A program made the translations under genes and the position numbers. The notes beneath the pieces were generated by a model. It was not told the origin of the DNA. It saw only the letters and a list, made by a program, of their open reading frames with translations, and made no database searches. From an uncultured Bacteroidales bacterium (GTDB lineage: Bacteria; Bacteroidota; Bacteroidia; Bacteroidales; Bacteroidaceae): a stretch of DNA of 47,926 bases. Positions within the stretch are counted from its first letter, which is position 1. Every line of letters begins with the position of its first letter. Shown in pieces: positions 1,340 to 7,652 of the stretch. Location: contig CACYHN010000026.1 of NCBI GenBank assembly GCA_902774275.1, positions 1 through 47,926 of the forward strand, read 5' to 3'.

Positions 1340-1858
1340 ATGGAGATTATTGAAACGGAGAGATTAAGGTTCCGCATGTGGCAGGAGTCTGATGCGGAGG
1401 ATTTATTCAAGTATGCCTCTGATCCTGACGTAGGCGAGCGTGCCGGTTGGCCTCCCCATAAGACGCTGGATGACAGTCTGATGGTAATACGGGAAATCTT
1501 TTCAAACGGTCATACCTGGGCGCTGGAGCTAAAGGAGAGTGGTCATGTGATAGGGTGTATGGGGTATTACCCGTATGGTGAGAGCAATATAGAGATAGGA
1601 GAGCAGGATGTTGAGGTGGGTTATTGGATAGGTAAGCCATATTGGAACAAGGGACTTTGCACTGAGGCCCTGCGCGCCATGATTGACTATTGTTTCAAGA
1701 GGAGAGGATTCAAGAATATCTGGGCCGATTTCTTTGTGGACAACCCCGCATCGGGCCGCGTAATGGAGAAATGCGGATTCATGGACACCGGCCGTACCAA
1801 CATACTCAGCAATCTCTATCACAGCGACTCCCGTCCTGTAAAGATCATGAAACTGTAA
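1340..1858 (+). CDS. GNAT family N-acetyltransferase (RimJ/RimL-like)
   Basis: A 172-residue acetyltransferase of the RimJ/RimL subgroup. It opens with the typical IETERLRFRMWQESDAEDLF and carries the acetyl-CoA motif A region VGYWIGKPYWNKGLCTEALR (about residues 95-115) and the family end NPASGRVMEKCGF (about 138-150). It starts 6 bases after nspC, so it is the third gene of the polyamine operon. The substrate cannot be read from the sequence. A polyamine is a reasonable guess from the neighbours, but this subgroup also modifies protein N-termini and small molecules. Transcription should end at the hairpin just behind the stop. Confidence 0.85.
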   Translation: MEIIETERLRFRMWQESDAEDLFKYASDPDVGERAGWPPHKTLDDSLMVIREIFSNGHTWALELKESGHVIGCMGYYPYGESNIEIGEQDVEVGYWIGKPYWNKGLCTEALRAMIDYCFKRRGFKNIWADFFVDNPASGRVMEKCGFMDTGRTNILSNLYHSDSRPVKIMKL

Positions 1859-1860
1859 AA

Positions 1861-1893
1861 ACGTGTAATTGGGGACTGTCCCCAATTACACGT
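1861..1893. terminator. Bidirectional hairpin terminator of the GGGGAC palindrome family
   Basis: A perfect inverted repeat of 15 bp (1861-1875 with 1879-1893) around a 3-base loop. It has an A-run on its left and a T-run on its right, so it can end transcription in both directions. It sits between two convergent genes (stops at 1858 and 1897). Its core GGGGACTGTCCCC belongs to the palindrome family repeated elsewhere in the window. Confidence 0.8.
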
Positions 1894-1896
1894 TTT

Positions 1897-2223
1897 TTAG
1901 AGGCGGGGAGTACGGATGATGTAAAGGATGTTGTTGATTATGTAGGCTACGGCAGCCAGTATTATTGCTGCGGCTAATGCCCGGAAATCATCGCAGAACT
2001 CTACCTGAATTGATACGTTTCCCCATGAGATCCTATCATATAATCCCATGAGGATAATCAGGAATTGAGCTGATATTGACATCATGAAAATGGCTTCAAT
2101 CAGTTTTCCTACAGGTCTGATTTTATCTATGGCCTTCCATGCGGCAGCTATTGTTGCCAGTAACAGAACCACAAATGCTATTGCATCGAAAGTGGATATT
2201 GAGGATAAGAAAAACTTTATCAT
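1897..2223 (-). CDS. Small membrane protein, second gene of LytTR module 1
   Basis: A 108-residue hydrophobic protein with about three membrane segments (roughly residues 12-30, 42-62 and 85-103). No named family is recognised. It ends in ILYIIRTPRL, nearly the same as the end of the protein at 4686-5117 (LYIIRTPRI). It has an AAWKAIDKIRPVGK stretch resembling the WKAPRWVRPxG motif of the proteins at 2236-2601 and 5142-5456, so the four look like one family. It starts 12 bases after its partner gene and shares that gene's promoter. The role is unknown; partnering with the membrane-bound LytTR regulator transcribed divergently is an inference. Confidence 0.75.
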   Translation of the reverse strand: MIKFFLSSISTFDAIAFVVLLLATIAAAWKAIDKIRPVGKLIEAIFMMSISAQFLIILMGLYDRISWGNVSIQVEFCDDFRALAAAIILAAVAYIINNILYIIRTPRL

Positions 2224-2235
2224 AAGGCAAGGTTT

Positions 2236-2601
2236 TTAGTTTCTACTTGTTTGAATTACAATGACAATCTTTGAGATAAGGAATACCGTAAATCCCAATG
2301 TTATTATAAACAGTTCGATTTTAAAGCCATCGATCCATACCATAGGTGATAAGGCTCCGGCGTTCTTTACGTCACTCAGTGCTGTCATAATCCTCCATGT
2401 CCATGGAATAAAAGAGAAGGCCAATGCTATTGATCCTAACGGTCTTACCCATCTGGGGGCTTTCCATCCGCAGAACAGTATCGCTATCAATATAATGGTG
2501 AAAACACTAAGTATCCAAGGCGGTACAATCTGGAATAATAAGGTTAGTGGTCCAGGAGCTGAGAATTCTTCAATTACTTCTTCTATCAATTCTTCTTCCA
2601 T
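2236..2601 (-). CDS. Small membrane protein, first gene of LytTR module 1
   Basis: A 121-residue protein with an acidic N-terminus (MEEELIEEVIEE) and three or four membrane segments. The motif WKAPRWVRPLGSIALAF follows the first segment and is almost identical in the paralogue at 5142-5456. An upstream in-frame ATG at 2628 is rejected because it falls inside the likely transcription start zone of the TATCTTTG promoter at 2626-2633. ATG 2601 leaves a leader of about 20 nt. The gene is first in a two-gene operon divergent from the LytTR gene at 2811. Function unknown. A membrane partner or inhibitor of the regulator, as in streptococcal HdrRM/BrsRM LytTR systems, is a hypothesis from layout only. 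Confidence 0.75.
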   Translation of the reverse strand: MEEELIEEVIEEFSAPGPLTLLFQIVPPWILSVFTIILIAILFCGWKAPRWVRPLGSIALAFSFIPWTWRIMTALSDVKNAGALSPMVWIDGFKIELFIITLGFTVFLISKIVIVIQTSRN

Positions 2602-2625
2602 AAAGCATTTGTATTTGGTTTGATG

Positions 2626-2633
2626 CAAAGATA
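2626..2633 (-). promoter_or_regulatory. Bacteroidetes -7 promoter box for the small membrane protein operon 1
   Basis: On the minus strand this reads TATCTTTG, an exact TAnnTTTG -7 element. The same TGATGCAAAG context (plus strand) occurs at the equivalent place in module 2. Confidence 0.65.
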
Positions 2634-2665
2634 TGGAGTTTGAACACGGTCATCCAATTTTTTTC

Positions 2666-2748
2666 GATGTCATATCCCTCTGTCAAGAAATCTGGTTGAT
2701 GTCAAATCCTATTGAAAGGTATTTAAGCCATTTTGAAGGGGATTTGAC
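2666..2748. promoter_or_regulatory. Operator-like repeats between divergent promoters, module 1
   Basis: GATGTCATATCC (2666-2677) recurs as GATGTCAAATCC (2698-2709), 32 bp apart or about three helical turns. GTCAAATCC (2701-2709) also has an exact inverted copy, GGATTTGAC, at 2740-2748. The same GTCAAATCC word occurs in the matching region of module 2 (5561-5569). These are the likely binding sites of the LytTR regulator encoded next door, which would make the module self-regulated. Confidence 0.55.
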
Positions 2749-2782
2749 AGTGCTTTTTTTAGCAGAGTGTTACAGTATTCAC

Positions 2783-2790
2783 TATCTTCG
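2783..2790 (+). promoter_or_regulatory. -7-like promoter box for LytTR gene 1
   Basis: TATCTTCG is one base from TAnnTTTG. The same octamer stands before the paralogous regulator (5643-5650). It predicts a leader of roughly 15 nt before ATG 2811. Confidence 0.5.
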
Positions 2791-2810
2791 TCAGCAGAAT
2801 TCCTTTGTTT

Positions 2811-3548
2811 ATGAAAAGAACCGTTATTATTGCCTATTGGACAGTTTCAGTGATTATAGTAGCACTGATAATTATGATGCTTGTGGGAAATCTGTCTTTC
2901 TCAAGAGCATTGTTTGTGGGAATGATGTTCCTGCCTGGAGCACTCGCCGCTCAGTATATGCTGCCAAAAATATCTTATAAAAGGAGAGCAGAGGGCATAC
3001 GTAATACCATTTATCTTGTTCTGGCTATTATCATTCTGGAATACTTGCTGCTGATATGGACTTTATGCTTTCAGCCTTCGGGATCATTTAGAATGATTAA
3101 AGGGGTGAATTATAATATTCCCTTTCATTTTCCTAAAGACACAGGAGTCTTTAATCCTTTATTTATTTCAGTAATAGTATCAGCGTTGGCCATAGGAGGA
3201 TCACTGATAGACCGATGGCTTACCCGCAACCATCCGGAGATGGAGAGCCCAATAACGTTCTGCTCTGATAGAAAGCGTGTATCGCTGCTTCCCAGTCAGA
3301 TGCTGTACATTGAGTCTTGTGATACCGAGGTGTATATCCATACTACCGATGGCCGCAAACTGCGTAACAAGACCGGCATATCGCAATGGGAATCGGCCCT
3401 GGGATATCCGTTTGTCCGCATCCATCGGGCCTTCCTGGTAAACAGTAATCACGTGGAATCGTACAATCAGGATACCGTCAAGGTGGGAGAGGAGTCACTC
3501 CCCGTCTCCCGCAAATACCAGAAAGGGTTGAAAGAAATTCTTTCTTAA
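2811..3548 (+). CDS. Membrane-anchored LytTR transcriptional regulator, module 1
   Basis: A 245-residue protein with four predicted membrane segments (about 5-25, 30-50, 66-87 and 114-134). A cytoplasmic LytTR DNA-binding domain follows at about 148-245, with the family features LLPSQMLYIESCDTEVYIHT, FVRIHRAFLVNSNHV and LPVSRKYQKGLKEIL. There is no receiver domain, so it is not a standard response regulator; sensing presumably goes through the membrane part. ATG 2811 is chosen because it aligns with ATG 5659 of the paralogue (MKRTVIIAYW versus MRTLVTILYW). It is divergent from two small membrane protein genes, with repeated operator-like sites in between. It ends just before a large palindrome. 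Confidence 0.88.
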   Translation: MKRTVIIAYWTVSVIIVALIIMMLVGNLSFSRALFVGMMFLPGALAAQYMLPKISYKRRAEGIRNTIYLVLAIIILEYLLLIWTLCFQPSGSFRMIKGVNYNIPFHFPKDTGVFNPLFISVIVSALAIGGSLIDRWLTRNHPEMESPITFCSDRKRVSLLPSQMLYIESCDTEVYIHTTDGRKLRNKTGISQWESALGYPFVRIHRAFLVNSNHVESYNQDTVKVGEESLPVSRKYQKGLKEILS

Positions 3549-3551
3549 AAC

Positions 3552-3625
3552 AGTACAATTGGGGTCTGACCCCTTTTGTATCATTTTTCAAAATAGTACA
3601 AAAGGGGTCAGACCCCAATTGTACT
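3552..3625. repeat. GGGGTC-type palindrome pair acting as terminator between convergent genes
   Basis: Two 29-base arms (3552-3580 and 3597-3625) are exact reverse complements around a 16-base spacer. Each arm also contains the smaller palindrome GGGGTCTGACCCC. The element fills the gap between the convergent stops at 3548 and 3631 and can fold into one long or two short hairpins. It belongs to the palindrome family described in the findings. Confidence 0.85.
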
Positions 3626-3630
3626 ATTTA

Positions 3631-4545
3631 TCAGTTCAGGCGGAAATTGAGAGGAACGATATATTTGGTGCGGCAGGGCTTATCATCTATCTTGCCGGGC
3701 TTCCATTTGGGCATTTTTGCGACAAAACGTAGAGCCTCAGCATCAAGTGACGGATATACGCTTTTAATGATTACAGGGTTGGTTATGGAACCGTCCTCCT
3801 CAACAATGAATTGTACCAGTACGCGGCCTTGGATACCTTCTGCCTTGGCATCCTCAGGATATACAAGTGTTTCCCTGAAAGAGCTAAGCAATGCTGCAGC
3901 ACCTCCGGGATATTCAGGCATTTCAGGAACTACAAGATATACTCCATCCTGGTCCTGTAAAACTTCCGGATTTGACATACCCACAAATTCATCATCTATG
4001 AAATCCACGTAATCAACATCATTCTCCTTGGATTCCTCTTTGAATTTGATGACCTCATCCATCCAGGCTTTGTCAGGAATATCTGTAAACTCACCTGTCT
4101 GGCATTCGGCAATCTTATCCGGAATCAGGGCGTAAGCATAAAAGCCATCATAAATTTCCACCCATATATCATCATCACTGTTCTCTCCATTATCGGTCTT
4201 GGTATAAGGGACTGATGCATTCTTGAGAATGGTCTTTGCCGATGTTGCCAGCTTATCGGCCAACTCCTGCGGGATGCTCTTGGTCAGAACCTTGCCGGCA
4301 TTCTTGTAAACGAGATTGTACTGACCCTCTTCTTTTACAAGAAATATGCCATACAGAAATGAGCCGTACGGGTCTTTCATCACATATCCGCAATCATAAC
4401 CTTTAGGAGCATATTTCTGCAGTTGCTCTTCAGTGTATGGCCTGTTCTTTACAACAATATAAATAGGAGGATAGACCGATGCAGTGCACACGGCAGCAAA
4501 CATGCTGAATACAGCGAAACTGAAAACTGAAAGGACTCTTTTCAT
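3631..4545 (-). CDS. Secreted protein with TonB C-terminal domain
   Basis: A 304-residue protein starting with a signal peptide (MKRVLSVFSFAVFSMFAAVCTA). A middle part of about 190 residues has no recognised family. A C-terminal TonB-like domain (about 213-304) shows the family pattern: YPGGAAALLSSFRETLVYPEDA, then QGRVLVQFIVEEDGSI and WKPGKIDDKP. No N-terminal membrane anchor precedes a proline-rich linker as in true TonB, so it is more likely a stand-alone periplasmic TonB-C protein. The reading frame stays open upstream through a palindrome, but ATG 4545 is the start because the signal peptide begins there. It lies between the two LytTR modules. Confidence 0.82.
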   Translation of the reverse strand: MKRVLSVFSFAVFSMFAAVCTASVYPPIYIVVKNRPYTEEQLQKYAPKGYDCGYVMKDPYGSFLYGIFLVKEEGQYNLVYKNAGKVLTKSIPQELADKLATSAKTILKNASVPYTKTDNGENSDDDIWVEIYDGFYAYALIPDKIAECQTGEFTDIPDKAWMDEVIKFKEESKENDVDYVDFIDDEFVGMSNPEVLQDQDGVYLVVPEMPEYPGGAAALLSSFRETLVYPEDAKAEGIQGRVLVQFIVEEDGSITNPVIIKSVYPSLDAEALRFVAKMPKWKPGKIDDKPCRTKYIVPLNFRLN

Positions 4546-4618
4546 ACCGCTTTCTTTTAATTGTTCACTATTGAAACGGCAAGATTTTGCAAATACGTCT
4601 CGCTGCCTGGAATTTTTC

Positions 4619-4685
4619 CGCACCGGGGACGGTTCTGTTCGCGTAGGGGACGGTTCTGTTCGCGAACAGAACCGTCCCCGGTGCG
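4619..4685. repeat. Composite GGGGACGG palindrome with an extra internal copy
   Basis: Outer arms of 25 bp (4619-4643 and 4661-4685) are exact reverse complements. The 17-base spacer holds a third GGGGACGGTTCTGTT copy, which suggests a partial tandem duplication within the element. It touches the stop codon (4686-4688) of the minus-strand membrane protein gene and lies upstream of the TonB-C gene, so it may be that operon's terminator. Confidence 0.85.
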
Positions 4686-5117
4686 TTAGATGCGCGGGGT
4701 GCGGATGATGTAGAGGATGCGGGTAATCAGGTAGTTGACGGTACTCCACATTAATACCGCGAAGCCATTGGCAAGTGGTGTTGTTATGTATTTCCAGATA
4801 CTATCAATTGAGTATATCTCCTCTCTGGTAATGGGCTGGCCACTTTCAAGCTTTTGATATAGCAAATCATAAATATCTTGATGGTTTACTTGGAACTGGT
4901 CGAATACCTGGACCATAGCGACACAGAAACAAAGGAATCCGAACACCATTGTTATAGTTCCCAGTGAGTGCAGCTTGGCGGGATACTTCCAGGCAATAAA
5001 GCAGATGGCAACCAACAGAAATACGGATGTTATGGCTGTGAATGCAGTTGTGTGATACAGTATAAACCCCATGTTTGAGGCATACTGATTAATACTAAGG
5101 CTGATTAAAGTATTCAT
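4686..5117 (-). CDS. Small membrane protein, second gene of LytTR module 2
   Basis: A 143-residue protein with about three membrane segments (roughly 20-45, 52-72 and 112-135). Its end, LYIIRTPRI, nearly matches the protein at 1897-2223. The stretch AWKYPAKLHSLGTITMVFGF corresponds to the WKxP...G motif of the other family members. The hydrophilic loop between segments two and three (about 75-110) is longer than in its paralogue. It starts 24 bases after the stop of the gene at 5142-5456, so the two form an operon. Function unknown; see the module 1 entries for the proposed partnership with LytTR. Confidence 0.75.
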   Translation of the reverse strand: MNTLISLSINQYASNMGFILYHTTAFTAITSVFLLVAICFIAWKYPAKLHSLGTITMVFGFLCFCVAMVQVFDQFQVNHQDIYDLLYQKLESGQPITREEIYSIDSIWKYITTPLANGFAVLMWSTVNYLITRILYIIRTPRI

Positions 5118-5141
5118 AGCGCTTATCTTTTTAAAGGTTGA

Positions 5142-5456
5142 TTAATGTCCAGGTTTCTGGATGAAACTGATAATGTGTGATATAAGATATATGAGCAATC
5201 CATATAATAAGGTTATGGTCATTAGTTTTAATCCTCCTGCCATTACAGTGGGACTTATGTCTCCTGCTTTCTGTATATCACACAGGCCAAGCAGGAAACT
5301 GAAAAAATAGAATAGTGCGCAGAACCCTAAAGCAATTGACCCAATTGGACGGACCCAGCGTGGAGCTTTCCAGGCACTGAGGAAAATCAGCACCAGCAGA
5401 ATGGTAAGGATGGCAAGAACGCCTCCCGGTAGTTGAGAAAGGATGTAACTCATCAT
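5142..5456 (-). CDS. Small membrane protein, first gene of LytTR module 2
   Basis: A 104-residue protein with about three membrane segments and the motif AWKAPRWVRPIGSIALGF, close to the module 1 paralogue at 2236-2601 (GWKAPRWVRPLGSIALAF). An earlier in-frame start at 5540 is rejected because it would lie upstream of the TAACTTTG promoter at 5486-5493. ATG 5456 (or the adjacent ATG 5453) gives a leader of about 30 nt. It is first in an operon with the gene at 4686-5117 and divergent from LytTR gene 2. Function unknown. Confidence 0.75.
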   Translation of the reverse strand: MMSYILSQLPGGVLAILTILLVLIFLSAWKAPRWVRPIGSIALGFCALFYFFSFLLGLCDIQKAGDISPTVMAGGLKLMTITLLYGLLIYLISHIISFIQKPGH

Positions 5457-5485
5457 AGTTTTTGTTTTTAAGGTTTGAACTGATG

Positions 5486-5493
5486 CAAAGTTA
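5486..5493 (-). promoter_or_regulatory. -7 promoter box for small membrane protein operon 2
   Basis: The minus strand reads TAACTTTG, an exact TAnnTTTG match, preceded on the plus strand by the same TGATGCAAAG string found at the promoter of module 1. Confidence 0.65.
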
Positions 5494-5530
5494 CTGTCCG
5501 ATGTCCGATGCCTCCCCAAGTTTCGGCCTA

Positions 5531-5597
5531 CAAATCCCAAATGTCGGTTTGGGAAAGGGTGTCAAATCCCACGTTTTAGCCCCAAATCCCAAATGTC
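5531..5597. promoter_or_regulatory. Operator-like repeats between divergent promoters, module 2
   Basis: CAAATCCCAAATGTC occurs exactly at 5531-5545 and 5583-5597, 52 bp or about five helical turns apart. A related GTCAAATCCC lies between them at 5561-5570. The shared word with module 1 is GTCAAATCC. The position between the divergent promoters of a LytTR regulator and its neighbour operon suggests regulator binding sites. Confidence 0.6.
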
Positions 5598-5642
5598 AGT
5601 CATTTGAATGGTGTTTTACTGGGAATATCGGGAGTGATTTCA

Positions 5643-5650
5643 TATCTTCG
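5643..5650 (+). promoter_or_regulatory. -7-like promoter box for LytTR gene 2
   Basis: TATCTTCG, the same octamer as before LytTR gene 1. It ends only 9 bases before ATG 5659, so the transcript would have almost no leader. Confidence 0.5.
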
Positions 5651-5658
5651 TGGATGAT

Positions 5659-6393
5659 ATGAGAACATTGGTCACCATACTCTACTGGATACTGTCTGTA
5701 GTGATAGCGGCGCTGGTTGTTTCAAGTGCCGGATACACTTTCTTGGAGTCACTGCTTATGGGCACAATGTTCCTTCCCGGTGCACTCGGGGCCAAATATC
5801 TGCTGCCCAAGGTATCTTTCCGGAAACGCAGTGATGGCATACAGGGAGTAATTTATATAGTGTTGGCTATCCTGGTACTTGAGTATCTGCTTATCTTGGC
5901 CGCAAACACATACATTCATTACCAGCGTTTAGGCGGAAACGGAAGTGCAAGTAATTACTATCAGATGCATGAGATGCCTCTCCCGTCAATGATTGTAAAT
6001 CCTCTGTTCATTACCATATTGGTGTCAATCCTGGCCATTGGCGGTTCCCTTATAGACCGATGGCTCACCTTAAAGCACCCGGAATTGGAAACTCCCGTCA
6101 CGTTCTGCTCCATGCGCAAGAAAGTCACGCTGCTGCCCAGCGAGATTCTGTATGTGGAGTCATGTGATACTGAGGTCATTGTCCATTCCACAGATGGACG
6201 ATCCCTGAACAATCGCACCGGAATCTCCCAATGGGAGGCGTTGCTCGGTCCCGGGTTCGTGCGCATTCACAGGGCCTTCCTTGTGAACAGCAAATACGCA
6301 AAACTGGAATCACAGGATACAGTATCGGTAGGCGACACCAAGCTCCCCGTCTCCCGCAAATACCAGAAAAGTTTGAAAGATATTCTTTCCTGA
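5659..6393 (+). CDS. Membrane-anchored LytTR transcriptional regulator, module 2
   Basis: A 244-residue paralogue of the protein at 2811-3548. It has four predicted membrane segments in the first 140 residues and a LytTR domain at about 147-244 (LLPSEILYVESCDTEVIVHS, FVRIHRAFLVNSKYA, LPVSRKYQKSLKDIL). The segment just before the domain, NPLFITILVSILAIGGSLID, is highly conserved between the two copies, whereas the loop between segments three and four (about 85-112) is not; that loop may carry specificity. A GTG nine bases upstream is possible, but ATG 5659 aligns with the paralogue. Its stop is followed at once by a palindrome shared with the convergent gene. Confidence 0.88.
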   Translation: MRTLVTILYWILSVVIAALVVSSAGYTFLESLLMGTMFLPGALGAKYLLPKVSFRKRSDGIQGVIYIVLAILVLEYLLILAANTYIHYQRLGGNGSASNYYQMHEMPLPSMIVNPLFITILVSILAIGGSLIDRWLTLKHPELETPVTFCSMRKKVTLLPSEILYVESCDTEVIVHSTDGRSLNNRTGISQWEALLGPGFVRIHRAFLVNSKYAKLESQDTVSVGDTKLPVSRKYQKSLKDILS

Positions 6394-6401
6394 GCTCCGC
6401 A

Positions 6402-7652
6402 TCAGGGACGGTTCTGTTCGCGAACAGAACCGTCCCCAGTGCGATAGTGGGCAATGATGATGATGGAGTTCTCGTGGCCTTTGACCTTGCGGAAGAATTC
6501 CATTACATCGGGACTGTAGCTGCGGTCACATTCTTTTTTGTCTATCAACTCCAGCTCGTCTCTTATTTCATAAGATGGGATTTGGTATATGACATCGTTG
6601 CCATAAATCGTATAACGACTTCCTTGGAACGGTTTTATTTTCCCGGATCTATCCCGTTTCAGACGGTACATTCTGGAGGTATTTTTTTCAAAGACATACT
6701 CTGTAAGATCATTGTACAGTAGGTACAGATAGTCCTTGTACTCATCAATGGAGTAGAGATCATCGTCATCACGAAACGCCTCATATCTCAGGTGCTTTTT
6801 CTCGTAATCGGATATTTCCGGCAGACAGCTCAGGTTGGCAATGCATCTGTATCCGTCGTCGTATAGACTGAAGATATGGCTGTCCAGCGCGGGCATCAGG
6901 ACGGTGGTATCGGACTGGGCGTTGTGGATGGCATCACGTATATGAAATCCGTACCAGTCACCAGCCATAGCGATGTCATGTTTGAGATTCTCCATTTCTT
7001 CATCGCTGAGATCCATCTCATAACCATTGGGTTCCATGGGAGAGCTGAATGTACCGTCGGGATGAATGTAGAAGTATTCATATACCGGTGTGATACTCAG
7101 GTTGTTTCTGACGAGTATGCTGCCGTCAGACATACATTTGATCACTTCATCTATATGATACCGCTCGGACAGCGTGTCGGTCTCAGTCAGACTAATGAAA
7201 TTACCCTGATAATCATACCTCTTGATGGTGACGTTGCTGTAGTAGCCGTTGCGGTTAACGAGTACCACCTGATTACGGTAGGGGTCGATTACCCATTCGT
7301 CAAGAAACAGGAACTCATTCCGTGCACGCCCCATATGGCCTATGTTATTGAGGTAGTGTCCTGTGCTGTCAAACACCTTTATGGAATAATTCCTAGGGGC
7401 CTTGTTGTCCAAAAAATAGAGCCCGTCATCATATTGAACCCTGAAGTTGTTACTCACTATTCCGTCAAGATTTTCATCCTCAAGCAGGATGTAGTCCCAA
7501 CTCTCCAGAAAGTTGTCATCGAAAGAACCTTCCAGATGAATTACGTCATCTTTTGTAATCTGTAGGGAACTGTCTGTAGAGACATTACTCTTGCAGGAAC
7601 AAAGCAATAAGGCCGATAGCATGGCCGCGGAAAAGGAAATATTATGACTCAT
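6402..7652 (-). CDS. 6-bladed beta-propeller lipoprotein
   Basis: A 416-residue protein starting at ATG 7652, with a lipoprotein-type signal (SAAMLSALLLCSCKS) whose lipidated cysteine is near residue 20. The body has the repeated aromatic/aspartate pattern of the Bacteroidetes 6-bladed beta-propeller family: IKVFDSTGHYLNNIGHMGRA, then EFLFLDEWVIDPYRNQVVLV, then IKRYDYQGNFI. Such proteins are outer-membrane or periplasmic and mostly of unknown role. The last 13 or so residues (RTGDGSVREQNRP) are encoded by the palindrome at 6405-6436, so the original C-terminus was probably a little shorter. The gene runs convergently towards LytTR gene 2. Confidence 0.78.
   Translation of the reverse strand: MSHNISFSAAMLSALLLCSCKSNVSTDSSLQITKDDVIHLEGSFDDNFLESWDYILLEDENLDGIVSNNFRVQYDDGLYFLDNKAPRNYSIKVFDSTGHYLNNIGHMGRARNEFLFLDEWVIDPYRNQVVLVNRNGYYSNVTIKRYDYQGNFISLTETDTLSERYHIDEVIKCMSDGSILVRNNLSITPVYEYFYIHPDGTFSSPMEPNGYEMDLSDEEMENLKHDIAMAGDWYGFHIRDAIHNAQSDTTVLMPALDSHIFSLYDDGYRCIANLSCLPEISDYEKKHLRYEAFRDDDDLYSIDEYKDYLYLLYNDLTEYVFEKNTSRMYRLKRDRSGKIKPFQGSRYTIYGNDVIYQIPSYEIRDELELIDKKECDRSYSPDVMEFFRKVKGHENSIIIIAHYRTGDGSVREQNRP
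6405..6436. repeat. Perfect 32-bp GGGACGG palindrome
   Basis: The two 16-base halves (6405-6420 and 6421-6436) are exact reverse complements with no loop. The core is the same as in the elements at 4619-4685 and 7733-7757. It lies between convergent genes and is read through as the last codons of the propeller gene. Confidence 0.85.

Follow-up and report, generated by a model that had tools for sequence, protein, structure and literature searches.

LytTR regulatory systems (LRS), among them HdrRM and BrsRM, pair a LytTR-family regulator that lacks a receiver domain with a membrane protein partner and have direct repeats upstream of their own promoter (PMC6193735). In the available part of that report, the regulator is soluble and its gene lies upstream of the inhibitor gene in one operon, the repeats are 9 bp long with 12-bp spacers between them (a 21-bp period), and the Streptococcus mutans partners carry DUF3021 or DUF2154 in four of five cases (PMC6193735). 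The same source (2018) describes, in Bacteroides thetaiotaomicron and B. ovatus, LRS-like operons in which a LytTR regulator with several transmembrane (TM) segments occurs with a membrane partner; that partner is NfeD-like plus DUF2154 and is encoded upstream in the same operon, the repeats are 11 bp long and 11 bp apart, the promoter contains TATCTTTG, and the available text reports no relation to ExbB (PMC6193735). Here, we analyze the window, a 47,926-nucleotide stretch (contig CACYHN010000026.1, contig C26 of the genome) from the 2.10-Mb, 78% complete genome of an uncultured Bacteroidales bacterium (assembly GCA_902774275.1). It holds two copies of a module in which the gene for a LytTR regulator with four predicted TM segments (4TM) faces two genes for small membrane proteins, and we found that regulators of this kind are paired with relatives of these small proteins, apparently truncated members of the MotA/TolQ/ExbB family, across the phylum. 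This is a real, conserved, and little-described signaling module. In open-license literature in PubMed Central, we found no report of an ExbB-type partner, of the divergent module, of its phylum-wide spread, or of a kinase counterpart. To our knowledge, what membrane-bound LytTR regulators sense is largely unknown, and a fixed partner descended from an ion-channel family would offer a concrete idea of their signal.

We use the name mini-ExbB for a MotA/TolQ/ExbB relative of about 100 to 150 amino acids without the large cytoplasmic domain, and we call the first and second small genes of each module A and B. All six module genes are open at the coordinates first described:

2811..3548, plus strand: regulator 1, four TM segments and a LytTR DNA-binding domain, no receiver (Pfam LytTR, E 1.2e-15; alignment)
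2236..2601, minus strand: putative mini-ExbB A of module 1, first gene (profile family with genus relatives; the relative L053:6624-7034 is over the PF01618 cut-off)
1897..2223, minus strand: putative mini-ExbB B of module 1, second gene, C terminus LYIIRTPRL (profile; tree)
5659..6393, plus strand: regulator 2, paralog of regulator 1 (57% identity; Pfam LytTR, E 1.5e-13; model pLDDT 87)
5142..5456, minus strand: putative mini-ExbB A of module 2, retaining the ExbB stretch DIQKAGDISPTV-AGG-K (single-sequence match to the true ExbB of the genome, E 4.1e-9, 44%; model pLDDT 85; top Foldseek rows ExbB, E 0.75)
4686..5117, minus strand: putative mini-ExbB B of module 2, enlarged TM2-TM3 loop, C terminus LYIIRTPRI (profile; alignment; tree)

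Open reading frames (ORFs), Pfam matches, and identities bear out the first-pass annotation, which had described two paralogous modules, each with a receiverless 4TM LytTR regulator divergent from two small membrane genes. LytTR is the sole Pfam family over the cut-off in each window regulator, with no receiver and no kinase domain. The A proteins of the two modules are 43% identical over 70 amino acids (E 1e-20) and the B proteins 28% over 126 columns (E 9e-9), while A and B within one module match weakly in pairwise comparison (E 1e-4 and 1e-3). The LYIIRTPR(L/I) ending noted for both B genes is correct. The WKxP motif ascribed to all four small proteins is exact in three; the B gene at 1897-2223 reads WKAI.

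Like the S. mutans LRS, the window modules have LytTR regulators without a receiver (by Pfam) and repeats between divergent -7-like boxes, that is, upstream of the predicted promoter of the regulator; the 21-bp LRS spacing recurs in 16 of 44 promoters of relatives with a single mini-ExbB gene, whereas the window has spacings of 32 and 20 bp. Three features differ from the LRS as described in the available part of PMC6193735. The window regulators have four predicted TM segments where the LRS regulator is soluble; the window genes are divergent, and in the five relatives with both genes on one strand (L058, L060, L103, L105, and L193) it is the mini-ExbB gene that lies upstream; and DUF3021 and DUF2154 are not listed at E ≤1 by Pfam for the four small proteins, while relatives match PF01618. 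The module is thus not an LRS of the S. mutans type, but, by analogy, it probably works like one. The Bacteroides LRS-like operons share with it a membrane LytTR regulator, a membrane partner, and promoter repeats, and they differ in that the window partner is a putative mini-ExbB and not NfeD/DUF2154. Since those operons are published (PMC6193735), the combination of a membrane-anchored LytTR regulator and a membrane partner is not new; the first-pass annotation had suggested that a regulator in the membrane could be a distinct Bacteroidales form.

Co-occurrence of the regulator and mini-ExbB

The arrangement is not due to chance, as it recurs in relatives. The genus set comprised 29 loci from matches to the A protein of module 2, plus the window; a fragment at a contig edge (G017:C80) was left out. 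Every regulator seen in this set adjoins small genes, two as a rule, and there are nine double modules including the window. The exceptions are L060, which has one small gene cut by the contig end, and L055, whose pair of small genes lies at a contig end and has no regulator beside it. Because the small gene was the selection criterion for these loci, they do not test the association independently.

Searches that started from the regulator gave the same picture. With its membrane part as the query, 28 of 301 genomes of the family matched, and 16 places outside the genus were fetched; three weak matches (L106-L108, E ~5e-4) were dropped as not this regulator, and the true regulator loci outside the genus have a mini-ExbB in 13 of 13 cases. 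A search of named genomes found 151 relatives of the regulator, of which the best 80 were kept. These correspond to 77 loci, 23 of them from the same genus as judged by contig and module type. Mini-ExbB is present in 76 of the 77, including loci from Alistipes montrealensis, a Petrimonas assembly, and Cryptobacteroides. The co-occurrence predicted by the first-pass annotation therefore holds, and the widespread occurrence of regulator homologs without the small proteins, which it had named as evidence against a system, was not found for this regulator subfamily. The sole exception is L179, where two genes that resemble tyrosine recombinases (L179:675-3061) lie directly upstream of the regulator that lacks a mini-ExbB. 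In the set used for trees, 82 of 86 regulator ORFs have a mini-ExbB gene on the opposite strand; L179 has none, and that of L193 is on the same strand. Among the same best 80 relatives, the closest named record is uncultured Bacteroidales bacterium RUG10916, with a 98% identical regulator, and many other close records are named for rumen or other gut samples.

Searches from the small-protein side reached further. In an order-wide search with the A profile, true ExbB swamped the result (224 of 295 genomes matched), so minis were not counted; instead, 13 places with short ORFs were chosen by eye among the matches listed. Ten are divergent from a LytTR system, five with a one-component regulator and five with a kinase and a response regulator. 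Of the others, two (L126 and L129) are true ExbB fragments, and L124 carries a mini-ExbB with no LytTR gene. A phylum-wide search with the mini-ExbB profile covered 395 genomes, and among the matches listed we took all 31 full-length places outside this genome (query from ≤ ~10 to ≥113). Of these, 30 are divergent from a LytTR system, split evenly between one-component 4TM-LytTR regulators (15) and 4TM kinases with a LytTR response regulator (15); at L255, ~1.9 kb separates mini-ExbB from the kinase, and at L229, the regulator is split over two ORFs. The form is therefore not, as had been thought possible, specific to Bacteroidales. Nor is the pair of small genes its general form: most loci outside the genus have one, and the pair is a local elaboration. 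Neighbor clustering over 57 loci found no other cluster in more than four loci. The five same-strand loci indicate that a shared promoter region is not required for the pairing. Such pairing across distant relatives points to a little-known mode of membrane-state sensing.

The remaining phylum locus, L244, counts with L124 against a strict link to LytTR. Here, mini-ExbB comes after a PadR-like gene (Pfam, E 1.8e-24) and a gene for a membrane protein, all three on one strand (L244:4340-5858). We take the middle protein, for which Pfam gave no match, to be a HAAS protein from its sequence. This single case resembles the HAAS-PadR membrane-stress systems as described in the available part of PMC11237479, and a PadR-like regulator is a possible third kind of partner for mini-ExbB. 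As a separate observation, two mini-ExbB genes at L240:4189-7366 enclose a gene for a MacB/FtsX-type permease beside a kinase and LytTR pair.

The association is restricted to one LytTR subfamily. The 78% complete genome has five LytTR matches, all membrane bound by appearance (three by eye). Besides the two window regulators, these include three multi-TM proteins of another kind, judged by eye (L246, L248, and L249), and no mini-ExbB was found within the ~1.5 kb fetched on each side of them.

Identity of the small proteins and of the membrane domain

The kinship of the small proteins with MotA/TolQ/ExbB, missed in the first description, emerged from Pfam matches in relatives and from profile matches to the Protein Data Bank (PDB). 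Ten minis from outside the genus were compared with Pfam; seven are over the PF01618 cut-off (L119, L128, L123, L127, L117, L225, and L244; E 1.3e-9 to 1.6e-6), and these matches lie between profile positions 31 and 122 of 127. When a profile of distant minis was compared with the PDB, 11 of 12 matches were TolQ (best E 4.2e-4), ExbB (0.026), or MotA (0.15). In distant minis, TM1 starts with GGP-FM or similar and is followed by TM2 and TM3; the large cytoplasmic domain is missing. Minis thus share with MotA/TolQ/ExbB subunits this TM1 start (in distant members) and the TM2-TM3 sequence signature, and differ from them in length (about 100 to 150 amino acids versus roughly 250 to 300) and in the absence of that domain.

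The window proteins are linked to this family by profiles. A genus search with the A protein of module 2 matched 36 of 37 genomes, and in most it also matched an ORF of ~250 to 350 codons (typically 44% over 54 amino acids, E ~4e-9). In this genome, that ORF is at C2:76104 and encodes a true ExbB (PF01618, E 6.3e-26), adjoined by two ExbD genes (C2:76916 and 77527); the stretch common to it and the A protein is DIQKAGDISPTV-AGG-K. One iterated profile gathers all four small proteins of the window together with their genus relatives. An AlphaFold model of the A protein of module 2 (pLDDT 85) returned ExbB in Foldseek rows 1 to 11, with a best probability of 0.97 and 1.6 Å over 70 columns. Several results weigh against the assignment. 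Pfam lists PF01618 at E ≤1 for none of the four window proteins; among eight A proteins of the genus, one passes the cut-off (L053, 25.8 versus 22.9 bits) and three are listed below it; the minis of L190, L183, and L197 fall under the cut-off even though PF01618 is their best match; and the Foldseek E values for the A model are 0.75 or worse, with ATP-synthase c subunits and unrelated helical proteins also appearing. Taken together, the distant members belong to the ExbB family by sequence profile, and the window proteins, linked to them by profile and consistent in predicted fold, are probably truncated MotA/TolQ/ExbB relatives with three TM segments and no large cytoplasmic domain. This gives a possible meaning to short proteins otherwise labeled at most as members of a proton-channel family. 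One mini, L225:4603-4992, also has a weak match to DUF2975 (E 1.3e-4, below the cut-off). DUF2975 proteins adjoin small helix-turn-helix regulators in Firmicutes, which makes them a possible distant parallel to the mini-ExbB modules.

The predicted structure of regulator 2 has helices at residues 2-22, 28-36 plus 39-51 (the second helix, kinked), 57-90, and 115-139, after which comes a LytTR fold (mean pLDDT of the model, 87). A fold search with this model against solved structures returned LytTR-domain proteins in 13 rows at E ≤0.001 and, at that threshold, no match for the region with the four TM segments. The loop that joins segments 3 and 4, which had been flagged as divergent, is indeed the region that differs most between the two regulators in the alignment; in regulator 2, it is also the least confident part of the model (residues 91-110, pLDDT 58-61).

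The kinases at mini-ExbB loci consist of a 4TM domain and His_kinase (PF06580; by Pfam for L123, L128, and L230), and the partner of the L128 kinase, tested with Pfam, has a receiver and LytTR. By profile, a pair of the LytS/YehU type, as in BtsSR and YpdAB, occurs at 15 of the 31 phylum loci among the matches listed; we know of no mini-ExbB partner described for BtsSR or YpdAB. The window regulators, unlike such two-component systems, have neither kinase nor receiver; both are present in relatives, L128 among them. In the distant one-component regulators, the 4TM domain is the one found in the kinases: the two domains match by hhalign (99.7%, E 3e-25), and the kinase profile scores 66 to 94 bits on 8 of 10 one-component loci (L236, 28.5 bits; L243, no match). 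Given this match, the one-component protein resembles a kinase sensor domain joined directly to the output domain of a response regulator. These parallel versions with the same partner form a natural experiment on the shortening of a kinase cascade to a single membrane transcription factor.

For the window clade, the link is less direct. Its membrane domain matches a middle set of 60 regulators (E 1.7e-46), yet between that set and the distant one-component set the match reaches only E 1e-4 (58%), and between it and the kinases only E 1.3e-3 (18%); compared directly, the window clade matches the distant one-component domain at E 9e-4 (23%) and the kinases at E 0.09 (0.6%). Relatedness to the LytS-like input domain, established by profile for the distant members, is therefore weakly indicated for the window clade. 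The same topology, the same output domain, and the same neighbor support it.

Promoters and the proposed role of mini-ExbB

The two modules have the same promoter geometry. We take the boxes named here to be -7-like elements, on the basis of the Bacteroidetes -7 consensus.

2602..2810: divergent promoter region 1 (a -7-like box on the minus strand at 2625 and one on the plus strand at 2783, with repeats in between)
2668..2677, plus strand: repeat copy TGTCATATCC, a candidate site for LytTR (32 bp to the next direct copy)
2700..2709, plus strand: repeat copy TGTCAAATCC (8-mer TGTCAAAT in 27 of 35 genus promoters)
2740..2749, minus strand: inverted copy of TGTCAAATCC (repeat search)
5457..5658: divergent promoter region 2, with the geometry of region 1 (a -7-like box on the minus strand at 5485 and one on the plus strand at 5643, likewise 158 bp apart)
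5531..5548, plus strand: repeat copy 1 of promoter 2 (direct repeat)
5563..5580, plus strand: repeat copy 2 of promoter 2, with TGTCAAATCC beginning at 5560 (direct repeat)
5583..5600, plus strand: repeat copy 3 of promoter 2 (direct repeat)

The box facing each regulator is TATCTTCG, and the boxes on the minus strand face the small-gene operons. The two boxes are exactly 158 bp apart in both modules, and each module has one repeat copy 43 bp and another 75 bp from the first box. Across the genus, the spacing is 157 or 158 bp in 20 of 35 promoters and 148 bp in two, and the rest have no such box pair; TGTCAAAT is common to 27 of these promoters. When we required at least 8 of 9 identical bases and compared the counts with 12 shuffles, direct repeats 32 bp apart were found in 14 of 30 promoters (shuffled mean, 0.8), and those 21 bp apart in the 16 of 44 single-mini promoters stood against a shuffled mean of 0.7. 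In the genome, TGTCAAATCC has 18 matches, versus 2 for a crude reversed-pattern control, and three lie in the module promoters. Fourteen of the other 15 are all in an ORF of at least 96 codons with no second copy within 120 bp; clustered copies therefore occur, among the 17 of 18 matches examined, solely at the two module promoters. We claim no further regulon targets.

This geometry and the repeats, as predicted binding sites, make autoregulation by the regulator likely. Against it stand the 15 of 35 genus promoters without the 157- to 158-bp spacing and the window repeat spacing of 32 and 20 bp, which is not the LytTR-typical 21 bp; the shuffles, moreover, overstate significance because promoters of related species are not independent.

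We propose that each module is a self-contained membrane signaling switch in which mini-ExbB restrains a regulator that activates its own promoter on release, a model to which we give about an even chance. Tethered in the inner membrane, the regulator would act as a one-component transcription factor, its 4TM input domain, related to that of LytS-like kinases, sitting directly on LytTR. As the conserved repeats and geometry suggest, it would bind the direct repeats in the shared divergent promoter and control both its own gene and the mini-ExbB genes. By analogy with the streptococcal LRS, mini-ExbB would assemble in the membrane with the 4TM domain and hold it inactive. A change in the membrane, for which envelope stress or proton-motive force is our favored guess, also by analogy, would release the regulator, and positive feedback would follow until new mini-ExbB restored the block. 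The LRS analogy makes this direction, with mini-ExbB restraining and the released regulator activating, the most likely one. The duplications of mini-ExbB (A and B) and of the module (types I and II, below) may give specificity between systems. More tentatively, and with somewhat less confidence than in the switch itself, we suggest that ExbB/TolQ/MotA subunits stripped to their membrane core serve as stator-derived signaling partners that inform a membrane transcription factor of proton-motive force or of the state of the envelope, a phylum-wide class that would span one-component LytTR, LytS-LytTR, and possibly PadR systems.

The best rival holds that mini-ExbB is a regulated product only, a membrane effector with no part in sensing; the 4TM regulator or kinase would sense the signal and turn on the divergent gene, much as LytS-type systems (BtsSR, for example) do with a single transporter. 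Divergent orientation in all 30 LytTR loci of the phylum set, among the matches listed, is what one expects of a target gene, as are repeats that lie between both promoters and, among the genome matches examined, cluster solely at the two modules. However, the partner stays mini-ExbB in both the one-component and the two-component versions, five loci have both genes on the same strand, and the window type has lost almost all residues for the known activity of ExbB. Constancy across forms, same-strand loci, and lost pore residues speak for a signaling role, and, without settling the matter, leave the product-only explanation a serious if rather unlikely one.

A second rival is that the minis are working ion channels or stators that use ExbD encoded elsewhere, with the LytTR system tuning their amount to proton-motive force. 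T148 and T181 of ExbB (T145 and T178 of TolQ) are named as proton-transport residues in the available parts of PMC12965293 and PMC6677748. In true ExbBs from these loci, both positions are T in 15 of 15; the first pick of these proteins used a pattern containing T148, and a second, pattern-free pick again gave T148 in 15 of 15 (15 of 15 loci). Of 31 distant minis, 2 have T at the T148 position and 21 have Q, while T181 is retained in 18. Single-gene minis, counted without the 11 minis of L250-L260, have T148 in 18 of 51, at a position where the alignment is unsure, and T181 in 10 of 51. A minis retain each residue in 1 of 33 and B minis in 0 of 33. No ExbD matched on the window contig; three ExbD genes were found on C1 and C2 of this 78% complete genome. 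Their presence would suit a working channel, yet two of the three adjoin the true ExbB on C2, there is no ExbD-like cluster among the common neighbors, and the minis lack the cytoplasmic domain. With the pore threonines almost all lost and no ExbD on the contig, conduction by the window minis appears unlikely, and they probably gate or sense instead. Pulling the other way, 18 of the 31 distant minis have the TM3 threonine and 18 of the 51 single-gene minis have T148, and some of these proteins may still conduct. Overall, we consider the working-channel explanation improbable.

It is very improbable that the small proteins are an unrelated family whose resemblance to ExbB is merely shared membrane-helix composition. 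Such a family would account for the window proteins listing no PF01618, for the nonsignificant Foldseek E values, and for the weak, below-cut-off DUF2975 match of one mini, but not for the seven of ten minis from outside the genus that are over the PF01618 cut-off, the TolQ/ExbB/MotA identity of 11 of 12 PDB profile matches, or so specific a shared stretch as DIQKAGDISPTV-AGG-K. Finally, chance or slow gene shuffling as the only cause of the neighborhood is hardly credible: although the genus-level loci are kin, the pairing is found in 30 of 31 loci of 31 phylum genomes among the matches listed, where other neighbors are hardly common, and in 76 of 77 regulator-picked loci.

Duplication history and neighboring features

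In a tree of 117 minis, the single-gene minis fall on one side of a branch with support of 87/82, and the genes of window modules 1 and 2, both A and B, fall with the type I and type II counterparts, respectively, of other genomes. An ancestral mini-ExbB was likely doubled to A and B, with the whole module then doubled to types I and II; with limited support, the two window modules look like whole-module duplicates. The mini alignment has few columns, and long branches were flagged; B may form one group, with support of only 56/33, and A appears in two places, which tells against this history. For these reasons, the order of duplication is likely and not proven. The earlier suggestion that the small-gene pair arose by tandem duplication is reasonable, as one iterated profile gathers all four proteins with their genus relatives and the tree agrees, with limited support.

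A TonB_C gene lies between the two modules (3631-4545, minus strand; Pfam, E 6e-20). We set it aside as a link between ExbB and TonB, since it is not conserved there. The gap between modules is <140 bp or an overlap in 7 of 8 other double modules, and is ~1.1 kb only in L033, the nearest relative; TonB was not among the neighbors common to the 57 clustered loci. We therefore treated this gene as an insertion.

Perfect or near-perfect palindromes with stems of 16 to 20 lie at gene ends in the window (1857-1897, 4646-4679, and 6405-6436). A search for a Y1 transposase found none in the 78% complete genome. The sequence GGGACGGTTCTGTTCGCG has 19 exact matches in the genome, versus 0 for a reversed control, and 18 of the 19 form 9 palindrome pairs. 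Downstream of module 2, a gene on the minus strand (6402-7652) encodes a DUF5128-type 6-bladed beta-propeller protein (Pfam, E 3e-7).

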